Positions 13,332 through 62,033 of a stretch of 64,000 bases of DNA are shown here, piece after piece; the first letter of the stretch is position 1, and the number at the start of each line of letters is the position of its first letter. The translations under genes and the position numbers were made by a program. The notes under the pieces are model-generated. The model was not told the DNA's origin. It did not search any database and worked only from the letters and a program-made list of their open reading frames with translations. The stretch is from Cornus controversa. Taxonomy: Eukaryota > Streptophyta > Magnoliopsida > Cornales > Cornaceae. The DNA lies in the NCBI GenBank assembly GCA_026545225.1, contig CM048845.1:77337033-77401032 (forward strand), given 5' to 3'.

Positions 13332-14103
13332 CAAAGTGCAATAAAACCCCCCGTGCTTTCAAAGAGGTGCAAAATATCCCCTGTGCTACTTTTGGGTGAA
13401 AATAACCTCCCTTAGCTTTTAAATAGTTGCAAAATACCCCCATTTGGACAAAATATAATTTTTTATGACTATTTTACCCTTTATATGTTTATAAAAATAA
13501 AAAATAGAAAAGAGGAGCTTTTTCGGAAAAAAAATTTCGGAAAAAAAATTTAAAATAAAAAATAAGGAGAGGGAATTGTTTCCAAAAACTTTTTTTTTTT
13601 CAAAAATTATTTAGTTTTCGTAAACAATTCCCTCTCTTTATTTTTAGTTATTTTTCCCGAAAACTTATTGTTTCCTTTTTTTTTTTTGTTTTTTGAAATT
13701 GTTTTCGGAAATTTTTTCCATTAGAAAGAAAGGGAATTTCTAAAAACAAAAAAAACAATTGAAAATAATTTTTGAAAAAAAAAATAGTTTTCGGAAACAA
13801 TTCCCTCTCTTTATTTTTAATTTTTTTTTTTGCCGAAAATTATTTCCAAAATTCTTTTCCGGAAAAAACTCCTCTTTTTTTATTAAGGTAAAAAAAAATT
13901 AATATAAAAAAACCCTATTTTCTCTATTTTTATTTTATTTTTATAGACATATAAAGGGTAAAATGATCATAGAAAAATATATTTTGTTCAAAGGAATGTA
14001 TTTTGGAACTATTTGAAAGCTAAAAGGGGTTATTTGGACTCAAAAATAATAGAATGAGGTATTTTTCATCTCTTTGAAAATATAGGGAGGTTATTGCACT
14101 TTG
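13332..14103. mobile_element. Long-TIR MITE (Mutator-like style)
   Basis: CAAAGTGCAATAAAACCCCC on the left pairs with GGGAGGTTATTGCACTTTG on the right. Inner blocks (GGTGCAAAATA / TATTTTTCATCTC; AAAATACCCCC / GTATTTTGG; TTTTACCCTTTATATG / CATATAAAGGGTAAAA; GGAGAGGGAATTGTTTCC / ACAATTCCCTCTCTTT) pair in mirrored order, so arms extend for about 300 bases each. It encodes nothing. Target duplication is not assignable because both flanks are TA-rich. Confidence 0.75.
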
Positions 14104-37008: not shown

Positions 37009-37907
37009 GGATGGCATGGCTGAAACGCAATTGATAAACACATGCATGCTGCACAAACTATCAATTCTATATCCAAGCAATCAATTATCAAAATCTAAAA
37101 TTGATAAATGAATGAAATAAAGCAGATTAAAATTAGTAGGATCTAATCGGTTTTCACATATCAATCCTGAACCTAAAAGAAATATAGAAAATTCTATATC
37201 CAAGCAATCAATTATCAAAATCTAAAATTGATAAATGAAATAAAGCAGATTAAAATTAGTAGGATCTAATCGGTTCTCAGATATCAATCCTGAACCTAAA
37301 AAATATATACTTTTATGAATTGAAGAATCCAGGAGGAAGAGAATGAGCAGAGGAGAGGAACAGATGTCTGGTAGCGGAGCATGAGTAGGAAATCGGTCAA
37401 ATGAAACAGATAGGGAACGGGGAGGGCGAAGACAACATGAGTAGGGGTTTTTTTGGAAATTGAGCATGCTAGGGTTTCTGACAGTCATTTACCACTTTAC
37501 GTATGCAAACACGTGAAGGTTGTTAGATTTTTATGAGGTACATACTTATGAAAAGGAGAGTACTTGGTACTACCTAACTAAGTGACGTGTCTCAATTGAA
37601 CATTGACAAATGTCCTAAGAAAATTAAAAATAAATTAAACTTATTCTTTAATAATTAACCGGACATGTGAAAACCGAATTGCGCTGTAGCACCCCACCCC
37701 ACCCCACGGTTGCAAATGTTTGATTATCTATCTTTGTTTCGGACAATACATACCCTCACTAGAACATGACACGTCATAAAAAAACTTGGGCATTACTGTA
37801 GTTTTATTAAAAAAATCAAAACTCCGAACTTTACTCTCTCGAACTCCCATCCCTCCCTCCACGTTCTCTCCCAAACTTAGACGCCGGGAACAATCTCGCC
37901 GCGGCCT
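37009..37907. repeat. Duplicated promoter-like segment, copy 1 (partner 60831-62033)
   Basis: From GGGATGGCATGGCTGAAACG to CTCGCCGCGGCCTGT, this segment matches 60831-62033 in the same orientation with small indels. It lies directly upstream of the decayed acidic-protein gene. It includes two ~130-bp units (ATTCTATATCCAAGCAATCA.. at 37064 and 37191), a CCCCACCCCACGG patch and a leader-like CCTCCACGTTCTCTC stretch. On the minus strand both copies encode the same start, MTVRNPSMLNFQKNPYSCC, so an unrecognised divergent transcript may have started here; the frames differ after about 23 residues. Confidence 0.85.
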
Positions 37908-42743: not shown

Positions 42744-43945
42744 TTAAACTTGAGACCCTCCCTCTTCTATCTTCTTATCTGTCTTGAGCACAAAGATGCA
42801 CTCTCGTTTGGAATCCATTGTCACTAAAATCATTGCATCTCGCTCACATTGTCTTGCAGCTTTGGCGAACAACTGGACTTTTTTCTTAGCTGCTTTGACT
42901 TTTTCCTCAAGTTCTTTTATTTTGCTCTCATCACTTTTTACATATTTCTTGGCGGCAGTTGAATGCACCTTCTTCAAATCAAGGTTTGTGAGTTCAAGGT
43001 CATCTACTGCCAAAGAATGCAAAATGAACTTCAAACCAAGGCTGGCTAGCATGTCTGCTGCCAAATTTCCTTCCCTAGGGACAAATTCTGCTTCGAAATA
43101 AGGCAGCGTTCGTAGGATGAGAAATACTTCGCTGCAAAAATAGAAAAGAACATTAATATTTTTATAATAAAAAAGTTAAATTAATTTGAAATAAATAAAC
43201 CAGTACAATTTGCATACCAGTACAAATTGTAATGGGTAACAGGTATCGGTCTTTTCTTCTGGAAGACATCGACTGCATTTTTGCAGTCCAGTAGCATCTT
43301 TAATCCTATTCCAGGTTTTACTACCACTGATTTAAGCCCTTCATATACAGATGCAACCTCCGCTCCCTCTGAGTCAAAAGCCAGCAAGGTTGCATCATCC
43401 TCTAGTTTCAATAGTGAAGTAATTCCCCTATCAATAGTCTTCAAATTTTTTGTTCCCTCACTCAGAATTCTAAAAAATGCTTTCTTATGCAGCTGTCCAT
43501 TGGCTCCAAAGAGTAAAAATGAGCCGGCCCCCACCTCCAGGTCATGTTTAAATCCTGCATTTGACCTAAGTATTTCCATGACGGAAGTTGGCCGTTTGAA
43601 AGATTCCAACTGCCACAGCAAATTCCCGTCCTTTAACTTATGATGCTCATATTCCGTTAACTCATCAATAACCTCAACTTGTAGGAAATGAAAATAAGAA
43701 AATAAATTCTTGAGGTCATCCCTTGATGCAGCCTTCAAGATGTTGTCCATAACATCTTTCGGGGTTATAGGCTTCCTTGGTATCTTTGGGTTGTAATTTG
43801 GATATAAATATTGCTCAAAAAAACTCTTGTAGTGTTTTTCAAAAAACAAACATACGTCCTCAAAACACTTGGGAGGCATATCTGGAATGGGACCGTGTAA
43901 ACGGGCGAATGATGCTGCAAATTTTTTATAAAATTCAGATGACAT
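42744..43945 (-). CDS. RNase H-like domain protein with novel N-terminus and coiled-coil tail
   Basis: Two exons, 43945-43218 and 43131-42744, joined across an 86-base intron (GTATGC donor at 43217, TTTTTGCAG acceptor) in phase 2; 371 residues. Residues 1-130 (MSSEFYKKF...) match nothing I know and are helical, with two Pro-rich joints (PDMPPK, PKIPRKPITPKD). Residues 135-273 follow the plant RNase H-like (RVT_3) pattern: GAGSFLLFGANGQLHKKAF, then GAEVASVYEGLKSVVV (Glu196), LLDCKNAVDVF (Asp220), then across the intron FEAEFVPREGNLAADMLAS (Asp269). The first catalytic Asp of the DGA motif is not evident. Residues 300-345 are a basic coiled coil (KIKELEEKVKAAKKKVQLF). The frame is open across both exons. 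An in-frame ATG at 43969 would add MRLISIII; I prefer the inner start. Cleavage activity is doubtful. Confidence 0.8.
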
Positions 43946-43989
43946 GATTATAATAGAAATTAGTCTCAATTTTAATAAGAAAAACTAAT

Positions 43990-44550
43990 GGAACTCAAAC
44001 CAATCATTTACTGTACTTTTGGCTTCCATGTGCGGCATTTTTACCCAAAAATGATTTTGTTTGATAAGAATTTGAAAACCATGATTTAGCTAATAAGTTA
44101 TCCATAATAAAAAGGCCCAACACTAAATACTTTTAACTAATTTATGCAAAATAGTAATAATGATTTACGTGGAAAACAATGGTCAGATGCCACTTGAGAT
44201 GATCACAATGGACTACATATATACACTTTTCGACAGCAAAATAATCACAAACACAGAGAGTGCATAAAAGATGAACAGATAGCAAAATAATAAAGGGAAA
44301 ATTTCTTCAGTGCCCTAATTTTTTGTCAATCTTTGACTTTTGAAATTTTTTATTATACTATAGCCCATAAGAAATAAATATGGATAAGTCCACACTTCGG
44401 CCCCCCAGGTAAAAATTTTCATTGGGCCTTTGGTAACTTTAAACCCAATATAAATAAAATTTTAAAGCCAAATCTCAATACCAATGTAATAAAAGCCCAA
44501 TAGTACAATTAGTGATATAATATTTCATATATATACATAATACATATATA
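43990..44550. other. Upstream region of the RNase H-like gene
   Basis: AT-rich, no exon. Contains AGCAAAATAATCACAAACACA (44236), a motif repeated many times at 45757-46140. Confidence 0.5.
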
Positions 44551-44554
44551 TAAA

Positions 44555-44896
44555 GATAAATTACACTGACCTTCTCTGAAATTTGGCCTAATTACATCCG
44601 ATATCAAACAAATAGATTTTATTACAATGATCTCCCTTGAGGTTTCCTCCGTTACGGCAAAGATACTCTTTGTCCAAAATTTCGTTAGTTTTGTCAAAAC
44701 ATTTAGTGCAAATTATAGTCAGGGTAGGTTAGTGTAATTTACCCTAAATGTTTTGACAAAACTAATGAAATTTTGGACGAAAGACGTCTTTGTCGTAATA
44801 GAGCATGCCTCAGAGGAGGTCATTGTAATAAAATCCATTAGTTTAATGCCGGATGTTATTAGGCCAAACCTTAGAAGATGTCAGTATAATTTACTC
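44555..44896. mobile_element. Long-TIR MITE hairpin
   Basis: GATAAATTACACTGACCTTC on the left is mirrored by ATGTCAGTATAATTTACTC on the right. Inner blocks pair throughout: GGCCTAATTACATC / TGTTATTAGGCC; AATAGATTTTATTACAATGA / TCATTGTAATAAAATCCATT; CCAAAATTTCGTTAGTTTTG / CAAAACTAATGAAATTTTGG. Arms are about 155 bases around a short centre that itself contains GTGTAATTTACCC. Non-coding. Confidence 0.85.
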
Positions 44897-44929
44897 TAAT
44901 ATTTAAGATATAATAGATATTTTACTCAA

Positions 44930-45100
44930 AAGTTAACATCGGTTAATTGTTACAAATGAGGTCATTGTAACAAAATTAATTAGTTTGACGTCGAGTATAA
45001 TTAGGTCAAACCTCAAGGGAGATCATTATAATAAAATCTATTAGTTTGATGTCGAATATAATTAGATCAAATCTTAAAGGAGGTCCGTGTAATTTACCCT
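44930..45100. repeat. Extra half-copies of the adjacent MITE
   Basis: GAGGTCATTGTAACAAAATT, then GGTCAAACCTCAAGGGAGAT, CATTATAATAAAATCTATTA and a final GTGTAATTTACCC repeat the right-arm sequence twice more, head to tail. Flanks of the whole 44555-45099 unit (ATATATAAA and ATATATAAT) match 8 of 9, but both are TA-rich. Confidence 0.7.
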
Positions 45101-45754
45101 ATATATAATTATAAAATTGTATCAATTCTACAGTATGCTTTTGAATGCATTGTGCAGTCTGTGCCCACCTTACCCAGTGTCTCACACTTACCATGCTACC
45201 CAACCCACGCCCCTTCTATCACTAACATTAACGAAGCTAAGGACCAACGTGAAGCAAAAACAAGGACAATACTAACCAAGCTTCATCTAAACTTGTTCAT
45301 GGTGGGCTGGTCCTCTTGAACTCCTGGTGGAAAGTTTAAAAAGAGATTGAACATGCAAGTCTCTCTCTTCCATTAAAAGCACTAATATTTTTTTGTCATT
45401 CTTTGGTGCCCTAATTTTTTTGTCAATCTTCAAAGCACTATTTATAAAATACGTGTTTGTTATATTCATATATGTAAATATAAATTAATATTAAATTTAT
45501 GTAATTTTTTTTTTCCAATGTTTCAAATACTAGCGTCATTCAGATTTTCAGTTGCAAAATTTCAAAATCTTTTACTAATAAGATCACAAATGAGTATTGA
45601 CTAGGTATAGTGATACATGATTGTCAAGCCACATAAATATGTAGTATGATAAAATTGTTAATAATTCAGCCCCACTCATAGAATTCTGACTCTGCCCTGT
45701 ATACCTTACTAGTTTCTACATATACACATAGAACGCGCGTGCCCACACATATAC

Positions 45755-45992
45755 ACACAAGTAAACAGCAAAATAATCACAGACACACACAGACGTAGAC
45801 AGCAAATAATCACAAAACACATGATATAATCATAATGAAGTACACACACGCGCGTAGACAGCAAAATAATCACAAACACATAAGATGATCATGGAGTACA
45901 TATATACACACACAAGTAGAGAGCAAAATAATCACAAACACGCAGAGTGCATAAAAGATGAACATAGTATTCTTAAATGAGAGAAATGTGTG

Positions 45993-46051
<59 letters not shown>

Positions 46052-46180
46052 ATATATATATATATATATAATCACAAACACATAAGATGATCATGGAGTA
46101 CATATATACACACACAAGTAGAGAGCAAAATAATCACAAACACACAGTGCATAAAAGATGAACATAGTATTCTTAAAACA
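45755..46180. repeat. Array of AGCAAAATAATCACAAACACA units with a long (TA)n
   Basis: The motif recurs at 45766, 45800, 45860, 45918 and 46126. A larger unit of about 110 bases (ACATAAGATGATCATGGAGT..to GAACATAGTATTCTTAAA) is duplicated at 45878-45976 and 46079-46177. Between them lie (GT)n at 45988-45998 and (TA)n at 46001-46070 with one C at 46050. The array abuts the large palindrome. Confidence 0.85.
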
Positions 46181-46199
46181 GAGAAATGTGTGTGTGCGC

Positions 46200-48608
46200 G
46201 GTTGGTATATCACGACTCGGATTAGTCGGGTTGGTATATCACGACTCTTCTGTGTGTATTTTATATTGTTGTTTTTTTGAAATATGTTTAACAATTGAAT
46301 TTATACATGGGCCTTTACATATTTTATGTATGGAACATTCTGAGTTTGATTGCAGGAGTAGTTAAAAATATTATCTTTCTCGTGGTCCGGTACTAATTTA
46401 TTTTATCATGATATGTGATTTAATTATGAGATATAAATAATTATTTTTTGAAATAGAGGCGATTTTGTAAAGGGCTGACCCAATAAGGGTTGGTTTGTAT
46501 TTTTTTTTATCTTGTCTAATATTTAGAATATTTGTTAAGTCCTAATATGGGCATAGGACAACCTTGTACTATATTTTTTACATTTAGTGTAGAAGTTCTT
46601 GAAGAGTTTAAGAAAAGATTCTGAAGATGAGAGTCAAGATTTTGAAGCACAGAAAAATCATGACATGATTTCTAACAGGCCATGAGGGGGATTTGCACCA
46701 TTTTTTATGTACAATGTTTTTATTTTTATTTTTTGTGCTTATATTCATGTGATGGTTATGTGCTTGAATGACAATTAATCCATGAATAGCTCTTGTTTGT
46801 TTGTTAATTTTAAACCAAATAAAGTTCGATTTGGTAAAATTAGCACATTCTAAATTATTTTCAAACATCTGATTTTTGAAAATTAAAAATCATCAATTAA
46901 ATTTTTTGGAAAGTGTAAGCACAATATTATTTGAATTAAAATGAATTTGTCTAATTGGATCTAATTATAATTGGGCTAAGTTGACCCAAATGTATTTCTC
47001 ATTGGGCTTTTTTTTGGCCCGATTTGATTTAATTAGTGTAGGCCCGTTTCACTCCATATAAAATTGATGTTTCACTTTAATCTAGGTCAAAAATCCCTTT
47101 TGTCTCAAGTCTTATATCTTACACTCGGAGCCGTAGAGAGAGAGAGAGGCCAAGTATACAAAGATTGTTTAGAGGCTCATATATGGCAAACGTCGGATTC
47201 GTGTAGTTTTCTGGTTTGAGTGTTTAATAAAGGAAGGGAAGGCAACTCAACTGTGAATTTAAAACCGTCAATTGCGTTAAGGCTTAGGTGGTGTTTTCGA
47301 TGAAGATTTGGGAGCGCTTATGTATATTCTTTTTCCCCTCTTTCCATTTATGTATGTTTATTTATACATAAATGTATATATATATACATTTATGTAAATA
47401 AACATAAATGTGTATATATATACATTTATGTATGTTTATTTATACATAAATGGAAAGAGGGGAAAAAGAATATACACAAGCGCTCCCAAATCTTCATCGA
47501 AAACACCACCTATGGAAATGGAATCAAGCCTTGACGCAATTGACGGTTTTAAATTCACAGTTGAGTTGCCTTCCCTTCCTTTAAACACTCAAACCAGAAA
47601 ACTACACGAATCCGACGTTTGCCATATATGAGCCTCTAAACAATCTTTGTATACTTGGCCTCTCTCTCTCTCTACGGCTCCGAGTGTAAGATATAAGACT
47701 TGAGACAAAAGGGATTTTTGACCTAGATTAAAGTGAAACATCAATTTTATATGGAGTGAAACGGGCCTACACTAATTAAATCAAATCGGGCCAAAAAAAA
47801 GCCCAATGAGAAATACATTTGGGTCAACTTAGCCCAATTATAATTAGATCCAATTAGACAAATTCATTTTAATTCAAATAATATTGTGCTTACACTTTCC
47901 AAAAAATTTAATTGATGATTTTTAATTTTCAAAAATCAGATGTTTGAAAATAATTTAGAATGTGCTAATTTTACCAAATCGAACTTTATTTGGTTTAAAA
48001 TTAACAAACAAACAAGAGCTATTCATGGATTAATTGTCATTCAAGCACATAACCATCACATGAATATAAGCACAAAAAATAAAAATAAAAACATTGTACA
48101 TAAAAAATGGTGCAAATCCCCCTCATGGCCTGTTAGAAATCATGTCATGATTTTTCTGTGCTTCAAAATCTTGACTCTCATCTTCAGAATCTTTTCTTAA
48201 ACTCTTCAAGAACTTCTACACTAAATGTAAAAAATATAGTACAAGGTTGTCCTATGCCCATATTAGGACTTAACAAATATTCTAAATATTAGACAAGATA
48301 AAAAAAAATACAAACCAACCCTTATTGGGCCAGCCCTTTACAAAATCGCCTCTATTTCAAAAAATAATTATTTATATCTCATAATTAAATCACATATCAT
48401 GATAAAATAAATTAGTACCGGACCACGAGAAAGATAATATTTTTAACTACTCCTGCAATCAAACTCAGAATGTTCCATACATAAAATATGTAAAGGCCCA
48501 TGTATAAATTCAATTGTTAAACATATTTCAAAAAAACAACAATATAAAATACACACAGAAGAGTCGTGATATACCAACCCGACTAATCCGAGTCGTGATA
48601 TACCAACC
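46200..48608. repeat. 2.4-kb near-perfect palindrome
   Basis: GGTTGGTATATCACGACTCG at 46200 is the exact reverse complement of the sequence ending at 48608, and mirrored positions keep a constant sum (94808) through the outer arm. The 261-base segment 46608-46868 (minus) and 47940-48200 (plus) encodes the same 86 residues. Seen differences are a 15-base block (GATTCCATTTCCATA) present only in the right arm near 47515 and single substitutions. The centre (about 47398) is TATACATTTATG-rich with almost no spacer. Each arm contains TATAAAATTGATG-like and (AG)n leader-like sequence, so arms may be LTR-derived. No protein is supported. Confidence 0.95.
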
Positions 48609-48751
48609 TGACTAGCCTGACTCAATTTATGCATATGTAAATTTATTTATGATATCATCATATTGAGTGATGTCACGAGGACATCCCCACTCACAATCGA
48701 CTCTAAGACTACCATTTTCCCACACAAAATTCTACTTTTCTATATAACATC

Positions 48752-49008
48752 ACATTCCCAACACTGAACTAATTGACTAATCAAAAGGTTATAGTTACTG
48801 GGGTTGAAATTTAATTTGTTAGATTCACTCCAACTCTCAAAGTAATCAAAAGGTTAAGCTCCATGTTGGCGAGATGTAATGGGCCACTGCCATAGTGGCG
48901 GAGCCCTTGATTCTTTATATATATATATATATATAAAGAAATTAAATTAAATCCCAACCCCAGTAACTATAACCTTTGATTACTCAATTAGTTCAGTGTT
49001 GGGAGTGT
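48752..49008. mobile_element. MITE-like inverted repeat
   Basis: ACATTCCCAACACTGAACTA on the left is mirrored by TAGTTCAGTGTTGGGAGTGT on the right; the arms continue through AGGTTATAGTTACTGGGGTT / AACCCCAGTAACTATAACCT. The centre includes a second, direct partial copy (AGTAATCAAAAGGTTA at 48840) and a (TA)n tract at 48918-48937. Confidence 0.85.
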
Positions 49009-49181
49009 GCTGTTTGATATATATATATATATATATATATATTGGCTTGAAAACCAAATTAAAGGAAGAAGAAAAGTCATTTGGCCGTTTTCCATGACGT
49101 TACCAGCTCAACAATCATTCAATTATTATTTTTTTCTTCTAATTCAAAGATGATAAAAATATTACCTTTTTTTCCGGATAA

Positions 49182-60830: not shown

Positions 60831-62033
60831 TGGGATGGCATGGCTGAAACGCAATTGATAAACACATGCACAGACTATCAATTCTATATCCAAGCAATCA
60901 ATTATCAAAATCTAAAATTGATAAATGAAATAAAGCAGATTAAAATTGGTAGGATCTAATCGGTTTTCACATATCAATCCTGAACCTAAAAAAAATATAC
61001 TTTTATGAATTGAAGAAAATTCTATATCCAAGCAAATCAATTATCAAAATCTAATATTGATAAATGAAATAAAGCAGATTAAAATTAGTAGGATCTAATC
61101 GGTTTTCACATATCAATCCTGAACCTAAAAAAATATACCTTTATGAATTGAAGAAAATTCTATATCCAAGCAATCAATTATCAAAATCTAAAATTGATAA
61201 ATGAATGAAATAAAGCAGATTAAAATTAGTAGGATCTAATCGGTTTTCACATATCAATCCTGAACCTCAAAAAATATACCTTTATGAATTGAAGAAAATT
61301 CTATATACAAGCAATCAATTATCAAAATCTCAAAATTGATAAATGAAATAAAGCAAATTAAAATTAGTAGGATCTAATCGGTTCTCACATATCAATCCTG
61401 AACCTAAAAAATATATACTTTTATGAATTGAATAATTTTTTTTTACCATGAATTGAAGAATCCAGGAGGAAGAGAATGAGCAGAGGAGGAACAGATGTCG
61501 GGGTACCCTGGTAGCGGAGGAAATCGGTCAAATGAAACAGATAGGGAACGGGAGGGCGAAGGCAACATGAGTAGGGGTTTTTTTGGAAATTGAGCATGCT
61601 AGGGTTTCTGACAGTCATTTACTACTGTACGTATTCAAACACGTGAAGGTTGTTAGATTTTTATGAGGTACATACTTATGATAAGGAGAGTACTTGTTAC
61701 TGCAAAACTGAGTGACGTGTCTCAATTGAAAATTGACAAATGTCCTTAAAAATTAAAAATTAAAAATTAAATTAAACTTATTTTTTAATAATTAAACGGA
61801 CAGACCCAATCAAGCAAAACCTAATTGCGCTGTAGCACCCCACCCACGCTTGCAAATCTTTGATTATATATCTTTGATTCGGACAATAAATACCCTCACT
61901 AGAACATGCCACGTCATAAAAATCTTGGGCATTACTGTAATTTTATTAAAAAGATAAAAACTCCGAGGAACTCCCATCCCTCCACGTTCTCTCCCAAACT
62001 TTAGAACGCCGGGAACAATCTCGCCGCGGCCTG
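60831..62033. repeat. Duplicated promoter-like segment, copy 2, with expanded tandem units
   Basis: Matches 37009-37907 in order and orientation: GGGATGGCATGGCTGAAACG, the tandem units, the MTVRNPSML minus-strand frame, the CACCCC patch, and CTCGCCGCGGCCTGT at the right edge, after which similarity stops. The ATTCTATATCCAAGCAATCA unit occurs four times here (60882, 61019, 61157, 61298; period 137-141) against two in copy 1. No downstream gene accompanies this copy. Confidence 0.85.
60882..61437. repeat. Four-copy ~138-bp minisatellite
   Basis: Each unit carries TTCTATATCCAAGCAATCAA, AAATAAAGCAGATTAAAATT, GTAGGATCTAATCGG and CACATATCAATCCTGAACCT, with only small differences such as AATATTG for AAATTG. 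Low divergence between units indicates recent expansion. Confidence 0.95.

Follow-up and report, generated by a model that had tools for sequence, protein, structure and literature searches.

Structure of the palindrome

The window analysed here, a stretch of 64 kb, has a GC content of 26-40% per 2 kb and contains many microsatellites, together with integrase and retroviral-type protease matches that are weak and lie below the Pfam cut-offs. An Rfam scan of the window gave 0 matches at the gathering score. At positions 46200 to 48608, two long arms in inverted orientation meet almost without a spacer, and the following features were delimited in and around them:

46068..46199, plus strand: satellite-like copy A', abutting the left arm; a sister copy, A (45866-45996), is 96% identical and precedes an AT array (46000-46070)
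46200..47395, plus strand: left arm, read as the probable inverted copy; aligned with the right arm with 10 mismatches in 1193 columns, stopping abruptly at a TG/AT microsatellite
46200..46247, plus strand: two identical 19-bp units whose starts lie 29 bp apart, at the left arm's outer end; mirror copies on the minus strand start at 48608 and 48579
46965..47064, plus strand: promoter-like block containing a TATAAA (47057) and four TGGGCY/GGCCC-type motifs, facing the centre, with a mirrored counterpart in the right arm
47225..47227, no strand: block of 3 nt confined to the left arm (alignment gap)
47345..47452, no strand: three short AT-rich palindromes in a cluster, namely U1 (47345-47374), M (47387-47410) and U2 (47423-47452), from alignment, DNA folding and repeat analysis
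47396..47401, no strand: centre of 6 nt between the arms, from repeat search and local alignment
47402..48608, minus strand: right arm, delimited by the alignment and read as the probable original
47513..47526, no strand: block of 14 nt confined to the right arm (alignment gap)
48609..48624, minus strand: right flank, which appears to extend the 29-bp terminal unit of the arm past the palindrome (10 of 16 positions matching in fixed register)

Local alignment of the two halves paired 46200-47224 with 47584-48608 (1025 columns, 1 mismatch), 47228-47284 with 47527-47583 (57 columns, 1 mismatch) and, innermost, 47285-47395 with 47402-47512 (111 columns, 8 mismatches, six of which fall at 47356-47363). 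A separate repeat search of the sequence returned the same arm limits. Exact inverted words reached 749 nt, against a maximum of 20 in 200 dinucleotide shuffles of 46100-48700, and four pairs of inverted repeats of at least 90 nt were found in the whole window with an exact seed of 12, two of them being parts of the palindrome. The 2.4-kb near-spacerless palindrome with near-identical arms of about 1.2 kb described in an earlier note on this DNA is thus confirmed in the given sequence. A BLAST search of 46050-48750 against the window detected no second copy of the arm; the remaining matches correspond to the AT-rich centre and to the flanking satellite-like repeats.

Other repeats and reading frames were observed elsewhere in the window. 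An older palindrome at 44513-44928, possibly a MITE, has arms of about 200 nt that are 79% complementary over an ungapped 171 nt and lie 19 nt apart, and parts of it recur in direct orientation at 44941-45101. An inverted repeat at 13387-14048 has 116-nt arms, 84% complementary and 430 nt apart. Two tandem arrays about 24 kb apart (37063-37309 and 60880-61432) share a common repeat-unit start, AATTCTATATCCAAGC. Minus-strand reading frames at 42744-43969 may belong to a FRIGIDA-like plant gene, and no Pfam match at cut-off was found for their 43181-43969 part.

Centre and differences between the arms

Folded as single-stranded DNA, the centre reaches -50.6 kcal/mol (z -15.5). The three AT palindromes found there are short inverted repeats of the kind expected at the centre of an inverted duplication formed at such repeats. 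U1 and U2 share one sequence in direct orientation and not as inverted copies, which would explain the cluster of mismatches at the centre, 6 of the 10 between the arms. The direct identity suggests either a pre-existing array or a later flip of a hairpin loop.

Differences between the arms are unevenly distributed, with 1 mismatch in the outer 1025 columns versus 9 in the inner 168, and both indels lie in the inner part, the 3-nt one at its border. Depending on how the central cluster is counted, the inner part holds 5, 6, 7 or 11 events, of which 5 and 6 were used. Counting the cluster of six mismatches once, 6 inner versus 1 outer events represent an excess of changes near the centre (binomial p 0.00005), and 5 inner events remain when the border indel is left out (p 0.0003); these p values are descriptive, because the border between inner and outer parts was chosen after the alignment had been seen. 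The pattern fits erosion of the centre, or gene conversion that holds the outer arms alike.

The one-arm block of the earlier note does occur in one arm only, namely the right, although its size is 14 nt instead of 15, and it is accompanied by a second indel of 3 nt in the left arm. Its proposed use as a marker of arm origin was judged sound. As no flanking duplication is seen by eye, loss from the left arm would be the simpler reading of this block.

The substitution rate of plants is about 7e-9 per site and year. Taking between 1 substitution in 1025 columns and 4 in 1193, this rate would very roughly date the palindrome to 0.07 to 0.24 million years, if no gene conversion has taken place; conversion between the arms could give an old palindrome a young look.

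Content of the arms

The 46100-48700 region contains 72 stop-to-stop frames of at least 25 aa. Ten reading frames of the window, six of them taken from these 72 as palindrome frames, were without a Pfam match at the curated cut-off. Two of these six showed matches below it, to DUF5888 (E 0.021), CC_CEP152-bind (0.078) and DUF7486 (0.21), and the one palindrome frame compared with solved structures gave 0 matches.

TGGGCY motifs are plant promoter elements. When 100-bp stretches were taken every 10 bp across the window, a density of four TGGGCY/GGCCC-type motifs per 100 bp was reached only within the two arms, the motif set having been picked after the sequence was seen and the second arm not being an independent case. 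The TATAWA pattern occurs at three further places in the arm besides 47057.

Exact arm patterns gave 0 and 0 matches in viral_contigs. In genome_contigs, an 18-base arm pattern matched a bacterial contig of 66% GC, which otherwise gave only 14-base matches (E 5.1) and was dismissed as chance; a distant search of plasmids returned two records, with 47 AT-rich bases at 83%, likewise taken as chance. These three collections are not meant to hold plant genomes, and their blanks are uninformative on plant copies.

Outer junctions and origin of the palindrome

The two outer junctions are asymmetric: the left arm stops abruptly at the TG/AT microsatellite, whereas the right flank apparently continues the terminal unit. 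On the left, the sister satellite copy passes into its AT array within about 2 nt of the position corresponding to the junction. On the right, the match at 10 of 16 positions is reached by 0.07% of the 16-mers of the window, this being the best of five lengths tried, with fractions from 0.015 to 0.0007; over the full 29-bp unit, the right flank matches at 15 of 29 positions versus 8 of 29 for the left. These figures point weakly to a continuation of the unit into the right flank. Comparison of exact words of 5-14 nt common to 46160-46220 and 48588-48660 revealed no exact target-site duplication of at least 5 nt at the palindrome ends; the longest word common to both regions has 6 nt, at positions that do not match, and shorter or imperfect duplications fall outside this comparison. 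Beyond the arms, an ungapped inverted comparison of the flanks gave 65 matches in 199 positions.

The surroundings of the palindrome contain further repeats. Satellite-like units, diverged and containing words such as CAAAATAATCACAAACAC, occupy 44199-44312 and 45711-46199, the second stretch ending exactly at the palindrome, and 132 bp to the right of the palindrome lies an element resembling a MITE (48741-49021), whose terminal inverted repeats measure about 77 nt.

The reading that we favour, with a probability of roughly 0.55, is that the palindrome is a recent inverted duplication in probable plant nuclear DNA, the right arm being the original and the left arm a copy of it, generated when the central hairpins prompted fold-back or a switch of template. 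What the sequence shows directly is the two arms, their asymmetric outer junctions, the centre with its hairpins and the concentration of differences around it; the order of events and the mechanism are inferred. The AT-rich hairpins now located at 47345-47452 would have let a replication fork or a resected break fold back, after which DNA synthesis would have retraced about 1.2 kb of the sequence, generating the left arm. Copying may have ended by a join to the TG/AT microsatellite at 46199, without visible microhomology, and small deletions and substitutions could later have made the centre more asymmetric. The proposed mechanism has precedents in the available text of two sources: template switching at short inverted repeats has been described (PMC10766186), and in yeast deficient in Mre11 or Sae2, inverted repeats of 5-9 bp with spacers of 3-12 bp are reported to drive the formation of large palindromic duplications (PMC7999016).

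The earlier note had left the choice between a recent inverted duplication and a foldback insertion. The first gains support from the very low divergence, with few outer versus many inner differences, the palindromic, hairpin-rich centre, the lack of matched words at the ends and the asymmetric flanks. Against a simple inverted duplication stand the weak continuation into the right flank and, above all, the direct identity of U1 and U2, which would not be expected from a simple inverted copy. The second alternative, an insertion, fares worse, with no exact target-site duplication of at least 5 nt and a right flank that seems to extend the terminal unit.

The insertion would be a foldback-type (Mutator/foldback-like) transposon consisting almost entirely of long terminal inverted repeats, a group to which FARE, SoFT and Tnr8 belong. 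This origin is unlikely, yet it has the most in its favour among the alternatives. Long inverted repeats with tandem subrepeats, a feature of such transposons, are present here in the form of 1.2-kb arms, each with a tandem pair of 19-bp units at its outer end, and the target-site duplication might have been lost or the left end truncated. Indeed, the accessible part of PMC3169594 describes foldback-like elements with composite terminal repeats containing tandem units, one copy of which lacks a target-site duplication and has an apparently truncated 5' repeat. The foldback transposon Tm1 of the same source resembles the palindrome in that most of its length is inverted repeat with tandem units at the ends, but 45 of 53 complete Tm1 elements carry a target-site duplication of 8-10 bp (PMC3169594), whereas the palindrome shows no exact one of at least 5 nt, has asymmetric ends and has no second copy of its arm in the 64 kb. 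Its six reading frames without a Pfam match at cut-off also speak against a transposon, although a non-autonomous element need not encode anything. A MITE was rejected, the palindrome being too long for the size range of such elements and lacking an exact target-site duplication of at least 5 nt.

Somewhat less probable is a sequencing or assembly artefact, in which, for example, the contig incorporated a foldback read. Arms this alike, separated by almost no spacer, do resemble foldback reads, and a hairpin-prone site such as this one may favour them. According to the available portion of PMC12870357, foldback reads make up about 0.55-0.6% of the reads in Nanopore genomic DNA and are practically absent from the PacBio HiFi data studied there. 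Nevertheless, the flanks differ beyond the arms, and an artefact therefore needs a second, unrelated join. The differences between the arms, moreover, consist of transitions, the central cluster and the 3- and 14-nt blocks, with no homopolymer slips. Both the transposon and the artefact are weaker explanations than inverted duplication.

Potential for hairpin RNA

The inner 628 nt (47085-47712) fold as RNA to -515 kcal/mol, compared with a mean of -136 in 20 shuffles, and the idea that a spanning transcript would form a long double-stranded RNA is structurally sound. Transcription across the centre would in every case yield a hairpin RNA, and from the sequence such a transcript is plausible, because the promoter-like block in the arm faces the centre.

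To go further and regard the palindrome as an active natural hairpin-RNA locus, which would make 21-24-nt small RNAs and silence a homologous gene or promoter elsewhere, is improbable on the present sequence. The near-perfect stem and the direction of the promoter-like block would suit such a locus, and precedents exist in VIM4-VIM2 (PMC13213937) and soybean CHS (PMC3534067). According to the available parts of these sources, plant inverted-repeat silencing loci, namely VIM4-VIM2 and PAI4-PAI1 of Arabidopsis Cvi (PMC13213937) and the soybean CHS I locus (PMC3534067), are likewise made of inverted arms that would give hairpin RNA; they are, however, inverted genes with demonstrated small RNAs, whereas no gene was identified in the arms of the palindrome. 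At each of the four substitutions outside the central cluster, A/T in the left arm stands opposite G/C in the right, the C being in CHH context, and all of them read C-to-T on the left arm; such a set could reflect methylation damage, as RNA-directed methylation could give, but the probability that all four point the same way by chance is 0.125, which is not significant. On the other hand, the arm has a CpG ratio of 0.72, higher than in 81% of 210 window stretches, and long-term methylation is therefore not indicated.

Promoter-hairpin transgenes are used in the laboratory, and a natural version of them, caught at birth, would be at hand if the arms were a freshly captured plant-gene promoter and leader placed head to head, with the locus driving its own promoter hairpin RNA and silencing the donor gene in trans via promoter methylation, a reading that we consider very improbable.

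Relation to known palindromes and significance

According to the available text of PMC10766186, long near-spacerless palindromes seldom occur in natural genomes and are unstable in every organism tested. The palindromes attributed there and in PMC7999016 to fold-back or template switching (ODIRA, snap-back synthesis) are like the present one in that the arms meet at short inverted repeats, with near-zero spacer and low divergence. As far as the available text of these sources goes, they come from yeast, mammalian cells and human disease and are often amplified, whereas a single 1.2-kb inverted copy was found here, in probable plant DNA. The palindrome is an unusually clean case of a known kind.

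If the palindrome is confirmed by long reads, the locus would preserve the likely start site of the event, the AT hairpin cluster, and its probable end point, the microsatellite, in arms young enough for changes to be counted. The palindrome could reveal the course by which duplications of this type arise and decay in plants, and whether small RNAs are produced as soon as a new inverted repeat exists.
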